Source of the DNA: an uncultured Clostridia bacterium
Lineage (GTDB): Bacteria > Bacillota > Clostridia > Christensenellales > Borkfalkiaceae
Length of the DNA: 61,546 bases
Direction of reading: 5' to 3'
NCBI GenBank assembly: GCA_947629665.1
Contig: CANREJ010000005.1
Coordinates: forward strand, 1 to 61,546
Below the pieces are notes generated by a model. The model saw only the letters and a list, made by a program, of their open reading frames with translations, did no database searches and was not told the DNA's origin. Position numbers and translations under genes: made by a program. Shown piece after piece: positions 2,272 through 12,979 of this stretch. Each line of letters begins with the position of its first letter. The first letter of the stretch is position 1.

Positions 2272-3582
2272 ATGGCAAACCCGTTAGTAGCTATTGTCGG
2301 CAGACCGAACGTGGGCAAAAGCACGTTTTTCAATAAGGTCGCGGGCAAAAAAATTTCAATAACGGAGGACAAACCGGGCGTTACGCGGGACAGATTGTAT
2401 GTCGATGCGGAGTGGCGCGGCAAGCCCTTCACAATGGTTGATACCGGCGGCATAGAAATGCGGTCGGAGGATACCATGTGGCGTGAAATCAAAAATCAAG
2501 CCGAAGTGGCCATAGAAACGGCCGACATTATACTCTTTTTTGTGGACGGAAAGGAAGGGCTGACTTCCTCCGACTATGACGTTGCGGACAGGCTCCGCCG
2601 TTGCAAAAAGCCCGTTATTCTGGTCGTGAACAAGGTGGACGAGTATTCCGCGGATAAAGTGTTTGAGTTTTACTCTCTCGGCTTGGGCGAACCTTACCCC
2701 GTATCCGCCGAACACGGCACAGGTGTGGGCGACGCTTTGGACGAGGTTGTAAGCTGGTTCCCAAAGGGCGAAATCGCGGAGGATGACAGCATAAAAATTG
2801 CCGTTGTCGGCAAACCCAACGCAGGCAAAAGCAGTCTTGTAAACAAACTTTTGGGCTTTGAACGCTCAATCGTTACCGATATAGCGGGCACCACACGCGA
2901 CGCCATAGACACAAAATTTTGTTTCAACAATAAAAATTATACCATTATAGACACTGCGGGAATAAGAAAAAAGAGCAAGGTTGAGGACGATATCGAATAC
3001 TATTCGGTAATGCGCGCGTTTGACGCCGTGCGCCGCGCCGACGTGTGTTTGCTTGTTGTGGACTGTACCGAAGGGTTAACCGAGCAGGATACAAAAATTA
3101 TCGGCTACGTACACGAACAGGGCAAGCCATCGATCATCGTTATGAATAAGTGGGATTTGGTTGAAAAGGACACAAACACCATAAACAAGTTCCGGAAACA
3201 GCTTGAAGAGGACCTCAAATTTATGGACTACTTCAAGAGCATACACATTTCCGCAAAAACGGGTCAGCGCACCGAAAAATTGCTGGCAATGGTGGGCGAA
3301 GTGTACGAACACGCGCGATTCAGGGTTGCAACGGGCACGCTGAACGACGTTATAGCCGAGGCGGTAAGAACGGGCGAACCGCCCTCGTATAACGGTAGGC
3401 GCCTTAAAATTTATTACGCCTCGCAAGTATCGGTTGCCCCGCCCACCTTTGTATTATTTGTAAATTCCACCGATCTTCTTCATTTTTCATATGAGAGATA
3501 TTTGGAAAACACCCTGAGAAAAAATTTTGATTTTTCGGGCACGCCTATAAAAATAATTATAAGGGAGAGGGGTGAACAATGA
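2272..3582 (+). CDS. der: Ribosome-associated GTPase Der (EngA)
   Basis: Essential GTPase for assembly of the 50S subunit. It has two tandem G domains: GRPNVGKST, DTGG and NKVD in the first, and GKPNAGKSS, DTAG and NKWD in the second. A KH-like C-terminal domain follows. At 436 aa it has the normal length. Its stop overlaps the plsY start as ATGA, and a GGGAGAGGGG ribosome site for plsY lies inside its last codons. Confidence 0.97.
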   Translation: MANPLVAIVGRPNVGKSTFFNKVAGKKISITEDKPGVTRDRLYVDAEWRGKPFTMVDTGGIEMRSEDTMWREIKNQAEVAIETADIILFFVDGKEGLTSSDYDVADRLRRCKKPVILVVNKVDEYSADKVFEFYSLGLGEPYPVSAEHGTGVGDALDEVVSWFPKGEIAEDDSIKIAVVGKPNAGKSSLVNKLLGFERSIVTDIAGTTRDAIDTKFCFNNKNYTIIDTAGIRKKSKVEDDIEYYSVMRAFDAVRRADVCLLVVDCTEGLTEQDTKIIGYVHEQGKPSIIVMNKWDLVEKDTNTINKFRKQLEEDLKFMDYFKSIHISAKTGQRTEKLLAMVGEVYEHARFRVATGTLNDVIAEAVRTGEPPSYNGRRLKIYYASQVSVAPPTFVLFVNSTDLLHFSYERYLENTLRKNFDFSGTPIKIIIRERGEQ

Positions 3583-4295
3583 GCGCGCTCTCGTTTGCAA
3601 CAAGCTGGTATTGGTTTTTGCTCGGCGGCATAGCGAGTTATTTAATAGGCTGTTTTAATTTTGCCGTCCTTATTTCCCACTTTAAAAATAAGGATATACG
3701 GGATATGGGCAGCGGAAACCCCGGCACAATGAACATGACCCGCAGTTTCGGCTTAAAATTCGGCGCAATAAACTTTTTTTGCGACGTTTTTAAGGGCGGT
3801 ATTCCCGCGCTGGTAGGCTGGTTAATATTCAAAGATTATTATTTTGAGGGCACAAACTTTTTTGTGGCAGACTTTGCCCGCTATCTTTTTGGGATAATGG
3901 TAATAATAGGGCACATTTTCCCCGTTACAATGAAGTTTAAAGGCGGCAAAGGCATAGCTTCGACCATGGGTCTGTTTTTGTTCGCAATTTCCTGCGAATG
4001 TTGGTGGTATATGTTTATAGTGATACTTTTCCTCACGGGAGTGCTTCTATACATAATATTTACCGAAATGGGCAGTATGGGCTCGTTGCTCGGCGTTACG
4101 GGGCTATCCGTTTTTCAGGCGGTAGTAACATTAATTAAATATAACGGGGCAAATAACGTTTGGGTAATAGTTACGCTGGCGCTTATTTTTGGAATCAACG
4201 TGCTTACCTGGGCGGCGCACCGCCAAAACATTTGGAGGTTGCTTGCAGGCGAGGAACACCGCACCTCGGTGCGCAAGCATAAAAGCAAGGCATAA
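3579..4295 (+). CDS. plsY: Glycerol-3-phosphate acyltransferase PlsY
   Basis: Membrane enzyme that acylates glycerol-3-phosphate from acyl-phosphate, the first step of phospholipid synthesis in most Gram-positives. It has about five membrane helices and the conserved loops GSGNPGTMNMTR (family SGNxGATN) and FKGGKGIAST (family GGKGxAT). At 238 aa it is slightly longer than usual, with a short basic tail. It is coupled to der by a 4-base overlap; the same der-plsY pairing is common in Firmicutes. Confidence 0.95.
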   Translation: MSALSFATSWYWFLLGGIASYLIGCFNFAVLISHFKNKDIRDMGSGNPGTMNMTRSFGLKFGAINFFCDVFKGGIPALVGWLIFKDYYFEGTNFFVADFARYLFGIMVIIGHIFPVTMKFKGGKGIASTMGLFLFAISCECWWYMFIVILFLTGVLLYIIFTEMGSMGSLLGVTGLSVFQAVVTLIKYNGANNVWVIVTLALIFGINVLTWAAHRQNIWRLLAGEEHRTSVRKHKSKA

Positions 4296-4326
4296 AAAAG
4301 TCGCCGCCGTGTTTTGCACGGCGGCG
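4294..4326 (-). terminator. Intrinsic terminator of the PH-like gene
   Basis: A perfect 10-bp stem (4302-4311 with 4317-4326, loop TTTTG) is followed on the minus strand by six T (complement of 4294-4299). The + strand side lacks a T tract, so the plsY message is not well served by it. Confidence 0.8.
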
Positions 4327-4340
4327 CATATGTTTAGGTG

Positions 4341-4820
4341 TTATTTTTTGGTGTTGTCCGGGGAGTTTTTAACAGAATTTATCACATATTCTATCTGCGG
4401 GTTGCACTTCAAAAGTTCGTTCACAAATTCTTCATACCATTCGGGCTTTACAACAATCATAACAAACGTCTCGTTTTTAAAATAAACCGCAAGTTTTTCG
4501 GTTGCCCTGTCAAGAATAACTTTATCTATTTCGCTGATTTTGAATTTGCTCTTTATTATGCCGAAACTCGTTTTAAGTTCGTCTCCGCCAACCGCATAAT
4601 AGGAGGAGGCGAGCAAACTTATCAAAATAATCAACAGCGCAACCGAAACTATAAACATTGCAACGAAGCCGATAATGGAATAGATTGCCTTATTCGAGTA
4701 TAAATAATCGGCTTTAATCACGTTGTATAAAGTGAGCGAAAATGCGGCGACGGCAAGAAGAATTCCCGCAAAAATGAACGCCGTAGTCAGTTTTGAAAAT
4801 TTGAACTTAAAAACTTTCAT
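4341..4820 (-). CDS. Two-TM membrane protein with PH-domain-like C-terminus
   Basis: 159 aa. Two hydrophobic segments (about residues 12-35 and 46-72) are followed by a soluble region, about 75-140, with the beta-strand rhythm of bacterial PH-like domains. Examples are the stretches DELKTSFGIIKSKFKISEIDKV and KLAVYFKNETFVMIVVKPE, given here in pieces for orientation only. I start at the ATG at 4820; the TTG six codons earlier lies on the promoter's -10 box and is rejected. The gene is alone on the minus strand, with its own promoter and terminator. Function is unknown. Confidence 0.75.
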   Translation of the reverse strand: MKVFKFKFSKLTTAFIFAGILLAVAAFSLTLYNVIKADYLYSNKAIYSIIGFVAMFIVSVALLIILISLLASSYYAVGGDELKTSFGIIKSKFKISEIDKVILDRATEKLAVYFKNETFVMIVVKPEWYEEFVNELLKCNPQIEYVINSVKNSPDNTKK

Positions 4821-4826
4821 AACGCT

Positions 4827-4855
4827 ATTATAGTGCAACCGTGATTAAAAATCAA
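4827..4855 (-). promoter_or_regulatory. Promoter of PH-like gene, leaderless geometry
   Basis: On the minus strand TTGATT (4850-4855) and TATAAT (4827-4832) have a 17-base spacer. Only six bases separate TATAAT from the ATG, so transcription should begin at or next to the start codon. Confidence 0.7.
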
Positions 4856-4892
4856 CAAAAATGCCTCATTTTAAATATTGACCGGCAAAAAT

Positions 4893-4922
4893 TTGAAAAA
4901 AACCGCAAAACGGTTGTAAAAT
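4893..4922 (+). promoter_or_regulatory. Promoter of aconitase-like gene
   Basis: TTGAAA (4893-4898) and TAAAAT (4917-4922) have an 18-base spacer. The ribosome site AAGGA lies at 4940-4944. Confidence 0.5.
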
Positions 4923-4950
4923 ATAAAAAACTCACTTTAAGGAAATATTT

Positions 4951-7170
4951 ATGATTAAACTTATCAAAAACGGCGTCTACTATATGGAGGGCGGCATAGT
5001 AAAAGAGAATGTTGCGTTTATGGTTGAAAACAAAAAGCGCGCGGCAATAAAAAATACTATGTCGTATGCGGTGCTTCAATCGCACAATATGGGCGGCGAG
5101 GAAAATCTCAAACTCAAATTCGACGCCCTCGCGTCCCACGATATTACATACGTAGGAATAATCCAAACGGCCAAGGCGTCGGGACTCAAAGAATTTCCAC
5201 TGCCGTACACTCTCACAAACTGCCACAACTCGCTCTGCGCCGTAGGCGGCACGATCAATGGGGACGACCATGTTTTCGGGCTCACAGCGGCAAAACGCTA
5301 CGGCGGGAATTTTGTGCCGCCCCATCTTGCGGTTATCCACCAATATATGCGCGAAACAGAGGCAAAGTGCGGCGGAATGATTCTGGGTTCGGACAGCCAC
5401 ACACGCTACGGAGCTTTGGGCACTATTGGGGTGGGCGAGGGCGGCCCCGAACTCGTAAAACAGCTTTTAAAACAGACCTACGACATAAAGCGTCCCGAAG
5501 TAATCGCCGTTTATTTAAAGGGCAAGCCCCAAAAGGGAGTAGGCCCGCACGACGTGGCGATAGCTTTGATTGCGGCAACTTTTAAAAAGGGCTTTGTTAA
5601 GAACAAAGTGCTTGAATTTATAGGTCCTGGAATAAAAAATCTTTCCATGGATTTCCGTTGCGGCATAGACGTTATGACCACCGAAACCTCCTGCCTTTCA
5701 AGCATTTGGGAAACGGACGGCGCAACCGAGGAATATTTTAAAATCCACGGCAGGGCGGAAGATTTCAAACCCATGCACCCCGTTCAGCCGGCATACTACA
5801 ACGGCGCGGTGGTTATAGATTTATCCCGCATCGAGCTGATAGCCTTGCCTTTCCATCCGTCAAACGCCTACACAATAAGGGAATTTTTACAAAACTCCGA
5901 AGATATTTTGGCGGCTACGGAAGAGGAGGGCGCAAAACTTCTCAAAACCGGTTCGTTTAAACTGCGCAACAAAATAAAAGACGGAAAAGTTTATGTGGAC
6001 CAGGCGATAATTGCAGGTTGTGCGGGCGGCAGTTACGAAAATATTGCCGAGGCCGCCGAAATTCTCCGCGGCGGAAGTTGCGGCTACAGCGGATTTTCGT
6101 TGAGCGTTTACCCGCAAAGCCAGCCCGTGTTTAAATGTCTTGCGGATAACGGCTATGTATCAAGTCTTATAACGTCGGGCGCGGTTGTAAAAACGGCGTT
6201 CTGCGGCCCTTGCTTCGGCGCGGGCGACACGCCTTCAAACAACGCGCTTTCCATTCGCCATACAACCCGAAATTTCCAAAACAGGGAGGGCAGTAAGCCT
6301 GCGGAAGGTCAACTTGCCGCCGTGGCGCTTATGGACGCGCGCTCCGTTGCGGCAACTGCGTTAAACGGCGGCGTGCTCACGCCCGCAACGGAAGTGGAAT
6401 ACGTCAAAAAAATCAAAAAATATTATTTTGATAAAACAATATACGACAACAGCGTGTATGTCGGCGCAGGCAAGCCCGATTACGGCACGGAAATTGTGTA
6501 CGGCGCAAACATAACCGACTGGCCCGAACAGATACCGCTTGCGGATAATATTTTAATCAAGGTTGCCTCCGTTCTCACCGACTCGGTAACAACTACGGAC
6601 GAACTTATACCTTCTGGCGAAACTTCATCCTACCGTTCCAACCCTTTGCGGCTTGCGGAATTTACCCTTGCGCGCAAAGACCCCCAATACGTTGCAAGGG
6701 CAAAGGAAATAAAGTCGGCGGAGTATTACCGCAAGAATAACGGCGTTTTACCCGAACAGGTACTTAAAGAGGTGGGGATAGAGATTGCGCCGAACGTATT
6801 ATACGGCAGTGCGGTCGTTGCCAAAAAACCGGGCGACGGTTCCGCCCGCGAACAGGCGGCTTCCTGCCAGCGCGTTTTGGGCGGGGTTGCAAATATCGCA
6901 TTGGAGTATGCAACAAAGCGCTACCGTTCCAATTTAATAAACTGGGGCATGTTGCCGCTTTTATGTAAAACATACGCCTTTGCCGTGGGCGATTATATTT
7001 ATATAGAGAACATTTCAAAATCAATTGCGGAAGGCGCGCCCGTAATTTATGCAAAACATATCTCAAACGGCAAAGTAAAGCAGGCGGAATTTGAAATAGG
7101 CTTTTTAACCGAGGAAGAAAAAAATATAATTCTTTCCGGTTGCCTCATAAATTACAATAAAAACAAATAA
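4951..7170 (+). CDS. Aconitase-superfamily hydratase (YbhJ-like)
   Basis: 739-aa enzyme of the aconitase fold. GSDSHTRYGALGT (146-158) matches the aconitase signature. Cys248 (in TTETSCLSS) and Cys418/Cys421 (in FCGPCFGAGD) are placed like the three [4Fe-4S] cluster ligands of aconitase. The C-terminal swivel domain seems to start near residue 590. The sequence differs from citrate-cycle AcnA/AcnB and from the LeuC/HacA types, and best fits the uncharacterised single-chain hydratases annotated YbhJ-like, whose substrate is not known to me. It is monocistronic, with its own promoter and terminator, so neighbours do not suggest a pathway. Confidence 0.82.
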   Translation: MIKLIKNGVYYMEGGIVKENVAFMVENKKRAAIKNTMSYAVLQSHNMGGEENLKLKFDALASHDITYVGIIQTAKASGLKEFPLPYTLTNCHNSLCAVGGTINGDDHVFGLTAAKRYGGNFVPPHLAVIHQYMRETEAKCGGMILGSDSHTRYGALGTIGVGEGGPELVKQLLKQTYDIKRPEVIAVYLKGKPQKGVGPHDVAIALIAATFKKGFVKNKVLEFIGPGIKNLSMDFRCGIDVMTTETSCLSSIWETDGATEEYFKIHGRAEDFKPMHPVQPAYYNGAVVIDLSRIELIALPFHPSNAYTIREFLQNSEDILAATEEEGAKLLKTGSFKLRNKIKDGKVYVDQAIIAGCAGGSYENIAEAAEILRGGSCGYSGFSLSVYPQSQPVFKCLADNGYVSSLITSGAVVKTAFCGPCFGAGDTPSNNALSIRHTTRNFQNREGSKPAEGQLAAVALMDARSVAATALNGGVLTPATEVEYVKKIKKYYFDKTIYDNSVYVGAGKPDYGTEIVYGANITDWPEQIPLADNILIKVASVLTDSVTTTDELIPSGETSSYRSNPLRLAEFTLARKDPQYVARAKEIKSAEYYRKNNGVLPEQVLKEVGIEIAPNVLYGSAVVAKKPGDGSAREQAASCQRVLGGVANIALEYATKRYRSNLINWGMLPLLCKTYAFAVGDYIYIENISKSIAEGAPVIYAKHISNGKVKQAEFEIGFLTEEEKNIILSGCLINYNKNK

Positions 7171-7185
7171 TTCAAGCATAAATAA

Positions 7186-7226
7186 AACGCACCCTTAAAT
7201 TTGCTTTTCGGGTGCGTTATTTTTTG
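7186..7226 (+). terminator. Bidirectional intrinsic terminator
   Basis: A 9-bp stem (7186-7194 with 7210-7218) is followed by ATTTTTTG on the + strand and by TTTTATTTATG on the minus strand. It can end both the hydratase message and the convergent small gene. Confidence 0.8.
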
Positions 7227-7234
7227 CGCTGTTT

Positions 7235-7501
7235 TTACGCCGTTTCTTTGGGTAAAAATGATTTGCCGTTTTTGTACGGACGGGGTGATTTAAATTCAAA
7301 TCCGCGCATATGTTCCCTGTTTTTCGGGCATTCGCGGCGGTCTTTTACAGGCTCGTCGGGGTCCGGGTTTTCCTCATCTTCAACTTGGCGCGTATTTACT
7401 GCGGCAGGTTCGGCAACTCTTCCCGCGGCGGAAGCCCAGCCCGCGGCAAAAATTATGGATAAACTCAAAACGCTTACAACAAAATACAATAATTTTTTCA
7501 T
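7235..7501 (-). CDS. Small exported protein, function unknown
   Basis: 88 aa. A typical signal sequence (MKK, a hydrophobic core at about residues 4-20, then AAGWASA as a probable signal peptidase I site) precedes a short Pro/Glu/Asp-rich hydrophilic region. There is no lipobox. No convincing ribosome site lies before the ATG at 7501. I believe it is real because of the signal-peptide composition and the convergent terminator at its 3' end. Its role is unknown. Confidence 0.6.
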   Translation of the reverse strand: MKKLLYFVVSVLSLSIIFAAGWASAAGRVAEPAAVNTRQVEDEENPDPDEPVKDRRECPKNREHMRGFEFKSPRPYKNGKSFLPKETA

Positions 7502-7542
7502 ACCAACAGTATGGATATTTTAAAATTTCGTTATGCAAAGAG

Positions 7543-7571
7543 TTGCAAATTCCGTTAAAATTATGTAAAAT
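7543..7571 (+). promoter_or_regulatory. Promoter of the TM1266-like/ABC operon
   Basis: TTGCAA (7543-7548) and TAAAAT (7566-7571) have a 17-base spacer. Start would be near 7578, giving a leader of about 95 bases before the first large gene. That leader holds a small ORF and an intrinsic terminator. Confidence 0.7.
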
Positions 7572-7599
7572 TATCTTACCTGAACGCAAAGAGCAATCT

Positions 7600-7672
7600 G
7601 AGGGCAAAGGAAGAGAAATGTTTTACCGCACGCGACGCGCGCTTTCTTTCCCTCTGTAAGGAGGGATTTTTT
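7600..7672 (+). promoter_or_regulatory. Transcription attenuator with competing hairpins
   Basis: Terminator: a perfect stem 7649-7654 with 7661-7666 (TCCCTC/GAGGGA, loop TGTAAG) is followed at once by six T (7667-7672) and then by the ATG at 7673. Competing stem: 7600-7604 pairs with 7650-7654 and 7606-7609 pairs with 7646-7649, extended by 7611-7613 with 7643-7645. This would lock up the 5' arm of the terminator. The terminator's 3' arm also contains the ribosome site of the next gene, so the hairpin can block both transcription and translation. The pairings are seen in the sequence; their use as a switch is inferred. Confidence 0.65.
7618..7659 (+). CDS. Putative 13-residue leader peptide
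   Basis: ATG at 7618 opens a 13-codon frame, MFYRTRRALSFPL, ending with TAA at 7657-7659. The ribosome site AAAGGA (7606-7611) is six bases upstream. Three of the first seven codons are Arg. The ribosome site lies inside the 5' strand of the competing stem, and the stop codon lies in the terminator loop directly next to the ribosome site of the following gene. This arrangement fits translation-dependent attenuation or translational coupling. Too short for a family assignment; a chance frame is possible. Confidence 0.5.
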   Translation: MFYRTRRALSFPL

Positions 7673-7921
7673 ATGTCCGAAAACAGAATAGCGGTTATAA
7701 GCATAATCACCGAAGCGAGGGAGCAGAGCCCCAAAATAAACGCGATTTTATCGGAGTTCGGCGATTTTATAATAGGCAGAATGGGAATACCTTATAAGCA
7801 AAAATCGGTATTCATTATAAGCATAGCGGTTGACGCCCCCGCCGAAGTAATAAACACCATCACGGGTAAAATCGGCCAGCTCTCAGGCGTAACTGCAAAA
7901 ACTCTGATGTCTAAACTTTGA
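7673..7921 (+). CDS. TM1266-family putative hydrogenase-system regulator
   Basis: 82 aa of the small ACT/NikR-C-like alpha-beta fold. The start resembles the TM1266 family (MSENRIAVISIITEARE), with central RMGIPYK and a C-terminal half AEVINTITGKIGQLSGVTAKT. Such proteins are named putative regulators of the iron-only hydrogenase system because of their usual neighbours. No hydrogenase or maturase gene is in this window; instead the next genes encode an ABC importer. The ribosome site TAAGGAGGG sits inside the terminator stem just upstream. What it binds is unknown. Confidence 0.75.
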   Translation: MSENRIAVISIITEAREQSPKINAILSEFGDFIIGRMGIPYKQKSVFIISIAVDAPAEVINTITGKIGQLSGVTAKTLMSKL

Positions 7922-7969
7922 TTAAATTTTTGAGGTAAAAGGGCAACCTGATACCGAAAAGGAGCAAAT

Positions 7970-9013
7970 ATGAAAAAATTACTGTCAATTTTCACCTGCG
8001 CGGTTGTCGCCGCGCTCACTGCGGTATGCTTTACCGCCTGCAATCCCCAAACCGAACCCGACAAAGTAAATCTTGTGGGTCTTGAATCCGCGGCGGCGGT
8101 CATTGCAAACGATGATATAGACTACTTTGTTGTTCCCGAACCGGCGGCAAGTCTGCGCGTCAAGGTTACGGCCGCCGATCCCGCGCAAAAACTCAATCTT
8201 GTAGGGAATTTACAGGAATTGTACGGAGGTACAAAGGGCTATCCCCAGGCGGTTGTAGTGGCAAAGAACAGCCTGTACGAAAGTAACGCACTGAACGGGT
8301 TTATAGCCGCGCTCAACTCAAACACCCAATGGCTCTCCGCCGAAACTACACAAATTTCGACAATACTTACCGCCGTTTCGGGGCACATTACTCCGGGCAT
8401 GGAGATGAGTTTGAACGCAAAAAATCTCACCAAACAGGTTATTGCCAATTGCGGTATCAGGTTCGAGGGCGCGAACAGTTGCAAAGAAGAGGTAAAATCT
8501 TTTCTCACGGCTTTAAAACAGGTAACCCCCACCGAGAACTACAACCCCGCAGACACATTTTTCTGGGGCGGTACTTTGCCCCAAACTGCGGGCGCTCTTG
8601 ACGGTGTTTCCGTATACGCCCCCGACGGCGCGCCCGCGCTCGCCCTGGCCGGACTTATGGCTGGTGAAATAGACACATCGACAGTTGCCGCCTCGATAGA
8701 TTATCACATTGTAAATGCAAATACAATCCAAACCTATGTAACGGGCGAATCACCCGCCGCAGACATCTGTATTCTTCCCGTAAATGCGGCGGCTAAATTA
8801 CTCGGTACGGGTGCAAAATATACCATGCTGGGCACGGTAACTCACGGCAACTTATATGTTTTATCAGCCAAAACAAGCGAAAAACTCACCGTTGAAAACA
8901 TTTCATCTCTCCGCGGCAAAACAGTGGGGGTAGTAAATCTTGCGCAGGTACCCGGCCTCACGTTGAAACTCATTTTAAATAAATACGGTATAGAGTTCGC
9001 GGAAAATTCTTAA
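7970..9013 (+). CDS. ABC substrate-binding lipoprotein, apparently circularly permuted
   Basis: 347-aa solute-binding protein of the NitT/TauT (NMT1-like) class. A signal peptide ends in the lipobox FTAC with lipid-bearing Cys24. In ordinary members the mature chain begins with a strand like VSVYAPDGAPALALA, continues to GKTVGVVNLAQVPGLTLK, then passes to KVNLVG...IDYFVVPEPAAS and the C-terminal lobe. Here the order is reversed: residues 32-190 look like the C-terminal part, and residues 212-347 like the N-terminal part. The end (LNKYGIEF) would join naturally to the beginning (DKVNLVG). The linker at 190-211 is new. Permease and ATPase genes follow directly, so it is probably functional. Substrate unknown. 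Confidence 0.8.
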   Translation: MKKLLSIFTCAVVAALTAVCFTACNPQTEPDKVNLVGLESAAAVIANDDIDYFVVPEPAASLRVKVTAADPAQKLNLVGNLQELYGGTKGYPQAVVVAKNSLYESNALNGFIAALNSNTQWLSAETTQISTILTAVSGHITPGMEMSLNAKNLTKQVIANCGIRFEGANSCKEEVKSFLTALKQVTPTENYNPADTFFWGGTLPQTAGALDGVSVYAPDGAPALALAGLMAGEIDTSTVAASIDYHIVNANTIQTYVTGESPAADICILPVNAAAKLLGTGAKYTMLGTVTHGNLYVLSAKTSEKLTVENISSLRGKTVGVVNLAQVPGLTLKLILNKYGIEFAENS

Positions 9014-9017
9014 TTTA

Positions 9018-9800
9018 ATGAAAAGATTTTTCACACAAAGAAAACTCAATATTTTAATATCTGTTTTTGCCGTCGCGGCCATGATAGCTGTTTGGATAAT
9101 AGCCTACTACTGCGTTAAAAACGACTACGTGATTCCGTCGTTTGGAGATACGATGGCGAGCATATGGAAAGATTGTCTTGCAAACGGCGACTTTTGGGTA
9201 GCGTTCGGAAACACTTTCGGGCGAACGCTTCTGGCATTTTCCGTTTCCTTTGTTTTGGGCGCCGCGCTCGCCTGTCTGTGCGCGCTATCCAAAAAAGTAA
9301 ACGCCTTCATTGTGCCGTTCATGGCGTTTTTCCGCACGCTTCCCACGCTTGCCGTCGTGCTTATTTTGCTCATATGGACAAATCCGCGCGTTGCTCCCGT
9401 TATAGTTACCGTACTTGTGCTGTTCCCGATGATTCATTCGCGCATTTTTTCGGCCTTGGACGGAATAGACGGCGGCATACGCCAAATGGTAAAGGTCTAC
9501 AAAATACCAAAAACAGAGGCGGTATTTAAAATATATCTGCCCCTTATAACGCCTGAGGTTTTGCCGCAGGCGGGAGCGGATATTTCTCTCGGCTTAAAAA
9601 TAATGATTTCTGCCGAAGTTTTGGCAAGTACTTTTAAAAGTTTGGGCGGAATGATGCAAAACGCAAGGTTGTTTTTGGAAATTCCGCGTCTTGCCGCGCT
9701 CACGGTTTCGGCGGTTTTGGTGGGACTTGTAGTCGATATTGCCTTTTCGCAACTCGCCCGCATAACGTATAAGTGGAGCAAAAAGGAGGGCGTAAGATGA
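9018..9800 (+). CDS. ABC transporter permease, NitT/TauT type
   Basis: 260-aa inner-membrane permease with about six hydrophobic segments. The EAA-type cytoplasmic loop around MVKVYKIPKTEAVFKIYLP is where the ATPase docks. Related to SsuC/TauC/ThiX-like permeases. It starts four bases after the binding-protein stop with no strong ribosome site, so it probably depends on translation of the gene before it. Its end overlaps the ATPase gene by four bases. Confidence 0.9.
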   Translation: MKRFFTQRKLNILISVFAVAAMIAVWIIAYYCVKNDYVIPSFGDTMASIWKDCLANGDFWVAFGNTFGRTLLAFSVSFVLGAALACLCALSKKVNAFIVPFMAFFRTLPTLAVVLILLIWTNPRVAPVIVTVLVLFPMIHSRIFSALDGIDGGIRQMVKVYKIPKTEAVFKIYLPLITPEVLPQAGADISLGLKIMISAEVLASTFKSLGGMMQNARLFLEIPRLAALTVSAVLVGLVVDIAFSQLARITYKWSKKEGVR

Positions 9801-10456
9801 TTGAAATAAAAAACCTTACCAAGTGTTACGGCAAAAAAGTTGTATACAGTAATTTCAATCTCACGCTCGACGAAAGCGGAATAACCTGCCTTTTGGGCGG
9901 CAGCGGAAGCGGTAAAACCACTCTGTTAAACGTAATTGCGGGCATAACCCCGTATGAAGGCGAAATTACCCCATGCAATTGCTCGTATATTTTTCAATCG
10001 CCTACGCTCGTGCCCAATCTTACTGTTTTCGGGAATTTAAAACTCGTTTGCAAAAACGAAGAAGCAATCAAAGACATGGTTGCCCGCGTGGGGCTTGAAG
10101 GCAAGGAAGGGAGCTATCCCGTAAATCTTTCTGGCGGAGAAGCGCAGAGGGTTGCAATAGCCCGCGCGTTTCTTTGTAAAAGCGACATTCTTCTCATGGA
10201 CGAGCCGTTTTCATCGCTCGACTTAAAACTGAAAAAGCAGATAATCGGGCTGTTTTTGCGGATATGGGGTGAGGACGGCCGGACCACGCTCGCCGTAACC
10301 CACGACCCGGATGAGGCGGCGGCCATTGCCCAGCGAATACTGATACTGAAAGACGGCGCAATTGCCGAAGATTTTATTCCGCAGACGCCCGTTCCGCGCC
10401 CGTTTTACGGCGGCGGGGAACTGCGTGAAAAACTCGTCAATTTGTTGATAAAATAA
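9797..10456 (+). CDS. ABC transporter ATP-binding protein, NitT/TauT type
   Basis: 219-aa ATPase: Walker A GGSGSGKTT, signature LSGGEAQR, Walker B ILLMDEPFSSLD and the switch His in AVTHDPDEA. I start at the ATG at 9797, eight codons inside the longest reading, because AAGGAGG (9782-9788) precedes it and it overlaps the permease stop as ATGA. It completes a binding protein, permease and ATPase importer unit. Confidence 0.95.
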   Translation: MIEIKNLTKCYGKKVVYSNFNLTLDESGITCLLGGSGSGKTTLLNVIAGITPYEGEITPCNCSYIFQSPTLVPNLTVFGNLKLVCKNEEAIKDMVARVGLEGKEGSYPVNLSGGEAQRVAIARAFLCKSDILLMDEPFSSLDLKLKKQIIGLFLRIWGEDGRTTLAVTHDPDEAAAIAQRILILKDGAIAEDFIPQTPVPRPFYGGGELREKLVNLLIK

Positions 10457-10476
10457 ATTACGACGCCGATATTTGC

Positions 10477-10505
10477 TTGACTTTGTTTATTTTGAAAATT
10501 ATAAT
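10477..10505 (+). promoter_or_regulatory. Promoter of mscL
   Basis: TTGACT (10477-10482) and consensus TATAAT (10500-10505) have a 17-base spacer. It starts 20 bases after the ABC operon ends, so mscL is a separate transcription unit. Confidence 0.8.
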
Positions 10506-10535
10506 ATCCATTGTAAAAACATTAAGGAGAAAGGA

Positions 10536-11132
10536 ATGAAGAAGTTTTTTAGCGAATTTAAAAAATTTATAACGCGCGGCAATGTTATAGATATGGCAGT
10601 CGGCGTTATAATCGGCGGCGCGTTTAGCGCAATCGTTACTGCGTTGACTAACAACATTTTAATGCCCATAATAAATTGGATACTGTTGGCTATAACCCAC
10701 GGCGAAGGCCTTGACCAAATTTATACATACCTCAAAAAGGTAACAATGTTGGCAGAGGATGGCTCAACGGTGATAGATACCGCAAATTCCATCTTTATCG
10801 ATTGGGGCGCGTTTATCACGGCAATAATCAATTTCCTTCTTATTGCGCTTGTGTTGTTCCTTATCATCAAACTTATAAACGGTTTACATGAGGGCGCCGC
10901 GAAGCAGAAAGGCAAGTATGCGCCTCTCACAAAGGAAGAGGTTAAGGCTTTAAGAAAGCAAGGCAAGAGCAGTGAAGAAATTCTTGCCGTTGCGGCCGCC
11001 AGGAAGGCAGAAAACGAGGAAGCAGCCAAAAAGGCCGCCGAAGAAGCTGCCGCAAACGCTCCCGAAAGCGAGCAAAAATTGCTTGCCGATATCCGCGATT
11101 TGCTCAAAGCCCAACAAAACAAAGCAGAATAA
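10536..11132 (+). CDS. mscL: Large-conductance mechanosensitive channel
   Basis: Osmotic emergency valve, normally a homopentamer. The N-terminal helix and first transmembrane pore helix are typical (FKKFITRGNVIDMAVGVIIGG... in part). The second membrane helix is at about residues 85-108. At 198 aa it is longer than the usual 130-150: the loop between the helices has about 20 extra residues, and the cytoplasmic tail is extended with an Ala/Glu/Lys-rich helix. I start at 10536 after AAGGAGAAAGGA; the longer reading from 10473 would run through the promoter. Confidence 0.93.
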   Translation: MKKFFSEFKKFITRGNVIDMAVGVIIGGAFSAIVTALTNNILMPIINWILLAITHGEGLDQIYTYLKKVTMLAEDGSTVIDTANSIFIDWGAFITAIINFLLIALVLFLIIKLINGLHEGAAKQKGKYAPLTKEEVKALRKQGKSSEEILAVAAARKAENEEAAKKAAEEAAANAPESEQKLLADIRDLLKAQQNKAE

Positions 11133-11148
11133 GTTAAGTAAAAATGTT

Positions 11149-11185
11149 CCGCCCGCAAGTATTTGCGGGCGGTTTGACTTTTTAT
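11149..11185 (+). terminator. Intrinsic terminator of mscL
   Basis: A perfect 10-bp GC-rich stem (11149-11158 with 11163-11172, loop GTAT) is followed by TTTGACTTTTTA. Confidence 0.85.
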
Positions 11186-11280
11186 AGCAGCAGGTTTTAT
11201 ATTTGTCAACTGTTTAAGGGGGCATTTAATAAATTTTTGTCAAATATATTTTATAAATTTTGCGCTAAACATTTTTATTT

Positions 11281-11328
11281 TTACAATATCTTGTGTTATA
11301 ATCTATATGTACCACAAAAATGTAGTGT
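11281..11328 (+). promoter_or_regulatory. NrdR-box-like pair around a TATAAT
   Basis: Box 1 (11281-11296) contains CAATATCTTGTGT and matches 13 of 16 positions of the remembered NrdR-box consensus acaCwAtATaTwGtGt. Box 2 (11313-11328, ending TGTAGTGT) matches about 10. The 16-base linker starts with TATAAT (11297-11302). The -35 region (11274-11279, TTTATT) is weak. The same arrangement and 17 identical bases occur upstream of nrdR at 24167-24214. The only gene downstream on this strand is purE, 345 bases beyond box 2. Confidence 0.5.
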
Positions 11329-11627
11329 TACAGCACAAAAAACGTAAAGCCGGAGCGGAATGCAAGATAAAAAAAGTAAACGTTAAAAACTCCTATCACC
11401 GGCAACAGTACCATCAACAGCATATTTTTTAAGCGGTATTTCATTATAAACATACTCACGTAAATAGCTATCGCTCCTCCCAAAATTGCGGTTAAAATCA
11501 GTTTTCCGTCGCCCGTCGGGCGCGTTTGTCCGTCGCCGTATTCGTCGCGCTGGGAGCGTATGAGCATAACGGCGTAAAAATTGATTGCTATAATATATAC
11601 GGAAAAAATTATATACAGCAAAATCAT
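11328..11627 (-). CDS. DUF1294 family small membrane protein
   Basis: 99 aa with four hydrophobic segments. The central [30 protein letters not shown] (quoted here only by its ends GDGKLIL and KYRLKN) matches the DUF1294 pattern: a basic linker, a Gly-Gly helix, and a histidine/lysine-rich region before the third helix. No function is established for the family. It is transcribed away from purE, 45 bases apart, and its last base coincides with the end of NrdR-like box 2. Confidence 0.75.
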
Positions 11628-11639
11628 ACTTAAAGTATG
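11625..11639. repeat. Perfect 7-1-7 inverted repeat between divergent genes
   Basis: CATACTT A AAGTATG covers the start codon of the DUF1294 gene and lies 34 bases before purE. It could be an operator for either gene, or chance. Confidence 0.4.
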
Positions 11640-11672
11640 TTCAAATGCAGTTTAAAAATACGGAGAACACAT

Positions 11673-12170
11673 ATGGCGCAGATTGCAATTGTAATGGGCA
11701 GCAAGTCGGATTTGGGTGTTGTAAAACCTACGATAAGCATAATAAAGAGTTTTGGCGTGGAGTGCGAAGTCCGCGTAATTTCGGCGCACCGCACGCCCGA
11801 AGAAGCTCATGAATTTTCGCGTATGGCAAAAGAACGCGGGGTGGAGGTCATAATTTGCGCGGCAGGCAAAGCCGCCCATCTCGGCGGCGTTATTGCGGCA
11901 AGCACAACTTTGCCCGTTATAGGTCTGCCCGTAAAGACGGACATGATGGGCGGGCTTGACAGCCTTCTTTCGATAGTACAAATGCCCTCCGGCATACCCG
12001 TAGGCACGGTGGGGGTAAACGGCGGCGAAAACGCGGGGCTTCTTGCCTTGCAGATTTTGGGTATAAAATACCCCGACATCGCCGAAAAACTCGCCGACTA
12101 CAAGGCAAAAATGCGAAATAAAATAAACAGCGACGACGCCGCGCTTCAAGCGGAACTCGAACAGCTTTAA
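11673..12170 (+). CDS. purE: N5-carboxyaminoimidazole ribonucleotide mutase
   Basis: Rearranges N5-CAIR to CAIR in purine synthesis. GSKSD near the N-terminus, SAHRTP and GKAAHLGGVIAA are the class I PurE signatures. At 165 aa it is the usual length. The start at 11673 follows GGAGAACACAT; the frame is open for twelve codons upstream but those are not family-like. First gene of the nine-gene purine block. A PurK partner, which class I PurE normally needs, is not in this window. Confidence 0.96.
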   Translation: MAQIAIVMGSKSDLGVVKPTISIIKSFGVECEVRVISAHRTPEEAHEFSRMAKERGVEVIICAAGKAAHLGGVIAASTTLPVIGLPVKTDMMGGLDSLLSIVQMPSGIPVGTVGVNGGENAGLLALQILGIKYPDIAEKLADYKAKMRNKINSDDAALQAELEQL

Positions 12171-12176
12171 TTTAAT

Positions 12177-12210
12177 ACCCGCAGTGTACTCTGCGGGTTA
12201 TAACTTTTTA
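12177..12210 (+). terminator. Weak terminator-like hairpin between purE and purC
   Basis: An 8-bp stem (12177-12184 with 12191-12198) is followed by TATAACTTTTTA. The T tract is broken, so it may only reduce readthrough or stabilise the purE 3' end. Confidence 0.45.
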
Positions 12211-12256
12211 TAATACCGAAATTTCGGCAACATTTTTATTTTTAAGGAGAAATTTT

Positions 12257-12979
12257 ATGGAGAAAAAGGAACAGCTTTACGAAGGCAAAGCAAAAAAGGT
12301 TTACGCAACCGAAAACCCCGACTACGTTATAGTGTCCTACAAAGACGACGCCACGGCGTTTAACGGGCTTAAAAAGGGCACAATTGCGGGCAAGGGCGTT
12401 ATCAACAACAAAATGAGCAATTTGATGATGTCCATGCTTGAAAAGAAGGGTATTCCCACTCATTTTGTCGAGCAGATAGACGACAGAAATACCCTTGTTA
12501 AAAAAGTGCAGATTGTTCCTCTTGAAGTGATAATAAGGAACGTTGCCGCAGGTAGTTTTTCAAAGCGTTACGGCGTTCCCGAAGGCACCCTTTTTAAGGC
12601 TCCCACAATAGAATTTTCCTATAAAAACGACGAACTCGGCGACCCGCTCATAAACGATTATCACGCCATTGCCTTAAATTTGGCGACCGCAGAGGAAATC
12701 GACGCAATAAAAAAGATGGCCTTTGCCGTAAACGACGCAATGAAAGCCTTTTTTAAAGAACTCCATATAGATCTCATAGACTTTAAACTTGAATTTGGAA
12801 GGTTCCACGGGCAAATTGTGCTTGCTGACGAAATATCTCCCGACACCTGCCGTTTTTGGGAGGCGGACACATGGGATACAACCAAGCATACAAGTCTTGA
12901 TAAGGACAGATTCCGTCGCGACCTCGGCGGCGTTGAAGATGCATACATGGAAATCTTCAAACGCTTGACGGGGGAATAA
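12257..12979 (+). CDS. purC: SAICAR synthetase
   Basis: Joins aspartate to CAIR with ATP. Family motifs: [10 protein letters not shown] at the N-terminus, [29 protein letters not shown] and [10 protein letters not shown]. At 240 aa it is typical of bacterial PurC. AAGGAG precedes the ATG. It is followed after three bases by the purF paralogue. Confidence 0.97.

Follow-up and report, generated by a model that had tools for sequence, protein, structure and literature searches.

An ABC importer gene cluster was identified in the window, which here means the whole 61,546-nt stretch of contig CANREJ010000005.1 that was analysed, from an uncultured Clostridia bacterium. The features of the cluster are listed in Table 1. 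The binding-protein gene occurs in a single copy in the genome of the window organism and is separated from the permease gene by 4 nt. The sequence-only reading had described an intact frame with permease and ATPase genes directly following, and both points were borne out. The start codon of the ATPase gene was picked by eye within an ORF that opens at 9773. The regulator gene just upstream forms the left flank of the exchanged part described below; its family (TM1266, putatively of hydrogenase systems) gives no more than a hint on the ligand of the importer. An ordinary aconitase-family hydratase gene is located upstream at 4951-7170 (NCBIfam PRK11413, 1172 bits). No RNA family scored above its gathering score in the region 3500-12500.

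Table 1. Features of the binding-protein gene and its neighbours in the window.
Feature	Position	Strand	Evidence or remark
Putative TM1266-family regulator, 82 aa, just upstream	7673..7921	+	NCBIfam TIGR03959, 101.7 bits (cut-off 60.8)
Substrate-binding lipoprotein gene, permuted, 347 aa, segment order B-C-A (CP1)	7970..9013	+	ORF intact
Signal peptide to lipobox Cys 24 (...CFTAC)	7970..8041	+	By eye from translation
Segment B (KVNLVG...EPAAS..), N-terminal part of the mature chain here, canonically middle	8063..8167	+	Segment HMM order
Segment C (..GNLQELYGG..GYPQAV...ADTFFW), canonically C-terminal	8186..8566	+	Segment HMM order
Linker GGTLPQTAGALDG connecting old C-terminus to old N-terminus	8567..8605	+	Junctions compared between permuted and canonical rows
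Segment A (VSVYAPDGAPA...ILNKYGIEF), C-terminal here, canonically N-terminal	8606..8998	+	Segment HMM order; 3hn0 chain 7-91
ABC permease (BPD_transp_1)	9018..9800	+	Pfam above cut-off; NCBIfam below cut-off
ABC ATPase	9797..10456	+	Pfam ABC_tran, 94.3 bits (cut-off 25)

Circular permutation of the binding protein

Three segments were defined in the window protein, P0001: A (residues 213-343), B (residues 32-66) and C (residues 73-199). Segment HMMs matched P0001 at residues 32-65 for B, 75-199 for C and 213-343 for A. The order is thus B-C-A, as against A-B-C in canonical NitT/TauT-like binding proteins. In the encoded order P0001 matched none of the Pfam families at E<=10, and so gave no NMT1 match. 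When the parts were rejoined in canonical order, as the sequence-only reading had suggested, NMT1 (PF09084) was matched at 27.4 bits (cut-off 20.5) in a single stretch that spanned the join, from residues 52-230 to positions 42-210 of the 216 in the profile. The construct consisted of two parts only, with signal peptide and linkers omitted; its match to SsuA_fam was weak and below the cut-off.

Comparison with solved structures was made with profiles of 22 of the 37 permuted and 22 of the 51 canonical proteins of the genus. The permuted profile matched PDB 3hn0_A, which we take to be a type II binding protein (E 4.4e-9), in swapped order: query positions 206-291 fell on chain positions 7-91, and query positions 49-185 on chain positions 144-270. 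The profile of canonical relatives matched the same chain collinearly. P0001 alone matched no type II binding protein among the solved structures. NMT1 was matched at E<=1 by 15 of the 22 canonical and by 5 of the 22 permuted proteins. An AlphaFold2 model of P0001, built with just two sequences (P0001 and L031), had a pLDDT of 30.9, too low to be usable.

The homologous segments are rotated, the old termini are joined and the new termini lie at one loop. A natural circular permutation of an importer binding protein, as first claimed in the sequence-only reading, is strongly supported: rejoining the parts in canonical order, matching them to a solved structure and surveying the orthologues (below) all gave results in its favour. 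We regard it as confirmed that the NitT/TauT-type binding lipoprotein encoded at positions 7970-9013 is circularly permuted. Judged by homology, its new ends would fall inside lobe 2, so that lobe 1 would be continuous and lobe 2 split. The permutation would accordingly differ from a plain exchange of two lobes. The earlier description as a reversed lobe order was right in that the parts are rotated, but the term is loose, as the cut is likely to lie inside lobe 2. The sequence of the window protein would place it with NMT1/SsuA-like proteins and not with MglB-like sugar binders.

Distribution and selection in the genus

The genus was surveyed in 93 genomes, of which 37 gave one collinear match, 53 gave two matches and 3 gave none. 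Fifty-one of the genomes with two matches carry A-B-C within one ORF; the two remaining loci, L078 (which ends at a contig end) and L081, are fragments and were left unclassed. The search for orthologues that had been proposed thus returned 36 other genomes of the genus with the order of the window protein, at 43-69% identity to it. Core motifs are retained in both chain orders. The ratio dN/dS was 0.10-0.12 in four permuted pairs (dS 0.5, 1.12, 1.18 and 1.70), the estimates of three of them being rough because dS is above 1.1, and it was 0.09 and 0.24 in two canonical pairs. The permuted genes are under purifying selection. Internal stops are absent from 36 of the 37 permuted genes, and the gene of G086 has one TAG. 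This gene (L029, 1501-2493) has the in-frame TAG after codon 225 and is a pseudogene or contains a sequence error.

Most of the searched genomes are drafts split into many contigs, which could raise the suspicion of an assembly or binning artefact within the gene. Such an error is dismissed as having a negligible chance, because 37 of 93 genomes have the same order, 36 of them with proteins well diverged from P0001 at the identities given above. The order was also found in the public contig CANRIK010000018.1 (311,986 bp), whose protein is identical to that of the congener G079, and the lack of stops in 36 of 37 genes with a dN/dS of about 0.1 likewise speaks against an artefact.

The rows examined for a permease gene numbered 92, made up of 91 loci and the window, which is listed twice; in 89 of them the permease gene follows the binding-protein gene on the same strand. 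Among these rows, no permease was found in L022, L048 and L081, and that of L039 is incomplete. In L058 (G012), binding-protein and permease genes are separated by a 694-nt gap with a repeat-like, stop-rich insert; the gap gave no match to the binding-protein segments.

Apparent exchange of the two orders between sister species

In a quick ribosomal-protein tree of 76 of the 93 genus genomes (those with an rplB match), the two orders were scattered and required 21 changes, at least 18 of them forced by well supported branches. This is hardly below the number for shuffled labels (means 25.3 and 24.2), equally low values being obtained in 28 and 62 of 500 shuffles. The permuted G067 and the canonical G074 have near-identical ribosomal proteins. 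Their DNA is 96% identical until 71 nt into the binding-protein gene, where the signal peptide ends. Beyond this point it is strongly diverged, with weak patches of 68-71%, until identity returns to 85% about 470 nt into the permease gene. Between the window and the canonical G075 and G070, similarity was lost at 7980, 11 nt into the gene and inside the signal peptide, and blastn recovered it only at 9391, about 370 nt into the permease gene. Against the permuted G080, the importer DNA of the window aligned without a gap.

Permease residues 1-125 were 32-54% identical in five permuted/canonical sister pairs, two of which include the window; the remaining permease was 46-66% and the ATPase 66-88% identical. 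The corresponding values of a sixth such pair were 50%, 53% and 79%, and those of five same-order pairs 77-95%, 84-96% and 76-91%. These identities by part indicate that the two orders differ in the mature binding protein and at the start of the permease, whereas the ATPase is roughly as similar between orders as it is in same-order pairs. The ATPase also varies on its own, because it is less alike than the permease in three same-order pairs. In L013/L015 and L074/L079, which have the same order, the ATPases are 77-78% and the permeases 90-96% identical, as if the ATPase had been exchanged separately. Signal peptides are 92% identical in G067/G074, 75% in L015/L061 and only 46% in the two pairs of the window with canonical sisters; the exchanged part thus does not have the same border in all pairs. 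A tree of permease plus ATPase required 9 to 10 order changes. Within the genus, species appear to exchange the two orders, and the permuted form of the window gene was therefore most likely either inherited or received.

It may be asked whether permuted proteins no longer transport and have taken a sensor- or decoy-like role, so that chain order drifts freely. The occurrence of permuted and canonical alleles in close sister species would agree with this. We consider it very improbable in view of the purifying selection, of the core motifs kept in both orders and of the same-strand permease in 89 of 92 rows, which diverges together with the binding protein.

Cut sites and phylogeny of the permuted proteins

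The survey was extended to the 253 genomes of the family, and 234 of these gave a match. Segment order in 144 chosen loci was A-B-C in 81, B-C-A (CP1) in 43, C-A-B (CP2) in 15 and partial in 5; three of the partial loci (L188, L189 and L191) were read as B-C-A by eye. The 15 CP2 proteins of the family were found in genera g4 (14 proteins) and g12 (one). A survey of the taxonomic order sampled 393 genomes, 169 with a match. Beyond the family, CP1 was found in families f3, f18 and f19 and CP2 in f21 (G367 and G293); segment B was located by eye in the CP1 proteins of G401 and G522 and in the CP2 protein of G367. Another form, CP3, was present in 4 of the 7 genomes of genus g60 (G376, G622, G621 and G619), the other three (G618, G620 and G331) being canonical. 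By homology, the CP3 cut would lie inside A, at the crossing from lobe 1 into lobe 2. The importer gene shows several independent permutations; three of the cut sites are new, and one genome adds a fourth.

The number of changes differed between trees. The first binding-protein tree within the genus needed just 2 changes of order; 11 of its 90 rows (3 permuted, 6 canonical and 2 fragments) had been dropped when sequences were cut at motifs. A quick tree of 140 binding proteins from several genera, which omitted four incomplete loci, needed 10 changes, at least 5 of them forced, and trees from segment A only and from segment C only needed 10 each (few columns, weak support). In a careful tree of 52 rows, the CP1 rows of g2 and g12 nested among canonical rows of their own genera. 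A single CP1 clade was rejected on this set (dlnL 191.6, p-AU 1.75e-64), which contains 18 permuted rows as against 46 rows in the full CP1 set, and none of 200 bootstrap trees had one change only. For CP2, one clade of the six rows of f1 and f21 was rejected in a set of 48 rows (p-AU 1.3e-4), and one clade inside f1 was not (p-AU 0.145). Both the 52-row and the 48-row sets were hand-picked after earlier trees had been seen. A single origin of CP3 is compatible with the well supported branches. The CP1 protein of G401 groups with canonical rows of f3. The CP1 protein of G522 (f19) is given no separate origin because it groups with the CP1 proteins of g15 (f1).

These data bear on the alternative of one ancient permutation that spread horizontally, the changes in the trees being due to recombination between permuted and canonical alleles and not to repeated permutation. 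Allele exchange appears real at this locus and could bend the trees, although the trees from A only and from C only both arrive at 10 changes. The in-genus tree with 2 changes, the position of the CP1 break, which fell in one and the same loop in those genera that were viewed by eye, the possible single clade of CP2 in f1 and the grouping of the G522 protein with the CP1 of another family are also in keeping with one permutation. The strong rejection of CP1 monophyly and the nesting of the g2 and g12 rows within their own genera, however, argue against it. In its strict form it is refuted by the several cut sites, because CP2, CP3 and the form found in G416 (see below) differ in cut site and cannot come from one CP1 event alone. 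On balance we find a single permutation unlikely. As read from these sequences, the chain of this protein seems to have been cut open more than once, and at more than one loop, across the taxonomic order.

A probable reversal in genus g55

In genus g55, represented by 10 genomes, CP1 was found in four (G350, G584, G391 and G321), and G583 and G434 are distant canonical rows. The protein of G416 runs A-B-C, yet an N-terminal SVFYDASAASEKGGGSGTL precedes A. This stretch is the counterpart of SVYYDETQATAQGEGSGTL, the strand plus linker that lead from the end of C to A in the CP1 protein of G350, and by eye the C-terminus of the G416 protein is without that strand. The DNAs of G416 and G350 are 71-80% identical, with signal peptide and permease in common and the blocks A and B-C swapped. 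Directly behind the lipobox codon, G368 (L314) lacks 60 nt that its relative G416 (L313) has; the missing stretch lies between two copies of GAAAAGGGCG, and GGGSGTL is retained. Such a difference, bounded by a direct repeat, is what a deletion between repeats would leave behind. The N-termini of G384 and G397 are short and do not contain the strand.

The simplest reading is that the G416 form probably arose from CP1 by a return to a near-canonical order, followed by trimming. The direction of this change is read from the scar, because the g55 tree does not settle it; the whole scar is present in G416 only.

Origin and spread of the permuted forms

In the permuted gene, the signal peptide is followed by the part that usually comes second in the mature protein, and a short linker bridges the old C- and N-termini. 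The product is most likely still a two-lobed clamp that feeds the adjacent permease. Its lipid anchor would now leave from the other lobe, because the new termini are predicted to lie in lobe 2. The part of the permease that differs along with the binding protein may be the part that must match it.

Duplication, fusion and trimming is the standard route to circular permutation. For each permutation, the gene was probably first duplicated, the copies then fused, and the product trimmed by deletions at short repeats; the 60-nt difference in g55 is the one case seen of a difference bounded by a direct repeat. The sequence-only reading had derived the window gene itself from a tandem duplication or a rearrangement within the operon. 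This part of that reading found no support, and its interpretation was upheld for the permutation alone: when the 144 loci were scanned in all six frames for additional or broken segments, neither a tandem duplicate nor a half-way form turned up. The scan returned weak stray matches of about 10 to 12 bits in five loci, along with fragments of L029 (interrupted by its stop) and L078 (truncated at the contig end).

The coding segment might instead have been excised as a DNA circle and reinserted, opened elsewhere, behind the signal peptide, without any tandem duplication. The swaps with common signal peptide and flanks and no leftover copies, and the several opening points within one gene, would be accounted for in this way. 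The standard route, however, needs nothing special, no recombinase site or circle was noticed in passing, and we judge a circle to be quite unlikely. One apparently permuted ancestor would also have gone back to a near-canonical order and left a scar behind. Within the genus, recombination would have spread the alleles by replacing the mature binding protein together with the beginning of the permease; in G067/G074, the sister pair that shows this most clearly, the resident signal peptide and flanks would have remained in place.

Taken as a whole, our explanation is a CP1 importer protein at a locus prone to re-opening, with one reversal and with spread of the alleles by recombination, and we hold it with considerable confidence. 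It is possible, with a chance somewhat short of even, that the locus is a permutation hot spot, at which a recurrent DNA process together with selection re-opens and closes the binding protein at different loops. The selection, equally tentative as a part of this idea, would be for tether geometry, surface variation or substrate swapping. If the locus were such a hot spot, congeners would carry different orders and permutation would be reversible on species time scales.

Comparison with known systems and significance

Natural circular permutations are mostly known as single, ancient events, and the passage through the change is largely inferred. Several permutations within one family are known from the amino-methyltransferases, where they are ancient and mark separate classes, whereas the orders of the gene described here differ between congeneric species. 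With its parts put back in canonical order, the window protein would fall by sequence into one family with NMT1/THI5-like proteins, SsuA-like proteins and PDB 3hn0; the NMT1/THI5-like and SsuA-like proteins run A-B-C, whereas the window protein and 36 congeners run B-C-A.

The closest precedent is TpMglB-2 (Tp0684) of Treponema pallidum, which is described as a circularly permuted tethered lipoprotein of an ABC importer (PMC4990184). According to the same paper, TpMglB-2 binds D-glucose, changes shape upon binding and was proposed as Type Ic / Cluster Bc, with homologues in treponemes and Gram-positives, many of them from the gut (PMC4990184). Like TpMglB-2, the window protein appears to be a naturally permuted and tethered importer binding protein. 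TpMglB-2, as portrayed there, is a type I/cluster B sugar binder with one topology in two clades, whereas the family of the window protein would be type II, is NitT/TauT-like and has several cut sites, both orders in sister species and a probable reversion. By its NMT1/SsuA-like sequence, the window protein would be set apart from TpMglB-2. In another system, circular permutation is reported for the imelysin-like proteins, a bacterial uptake-related family (PMC3143127).

No report of recurrent binding-protein permutation was found in the literature searched, as judged by listings; most subscription journals lay outside the scope of the search, which leaves its absence unproven. A permuted importer protein is thus already known; what appears new is repeated, multi-site and apparently reversible permutation among close relatives of one gene.

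Annotation based on profiles can miss permuted proteins such as the window protein, which has no Pfam match. The proteins found here offer natural designs for biosensors built on permuted binding proteins. With alleles of sister species that have matching flanks, and with the scar of a probable reversal, the route, the intermediates and the cost of permutation become directly testable. This importer gene of a gut bacterium is an unusually good natural case for the study of how chain order changes.
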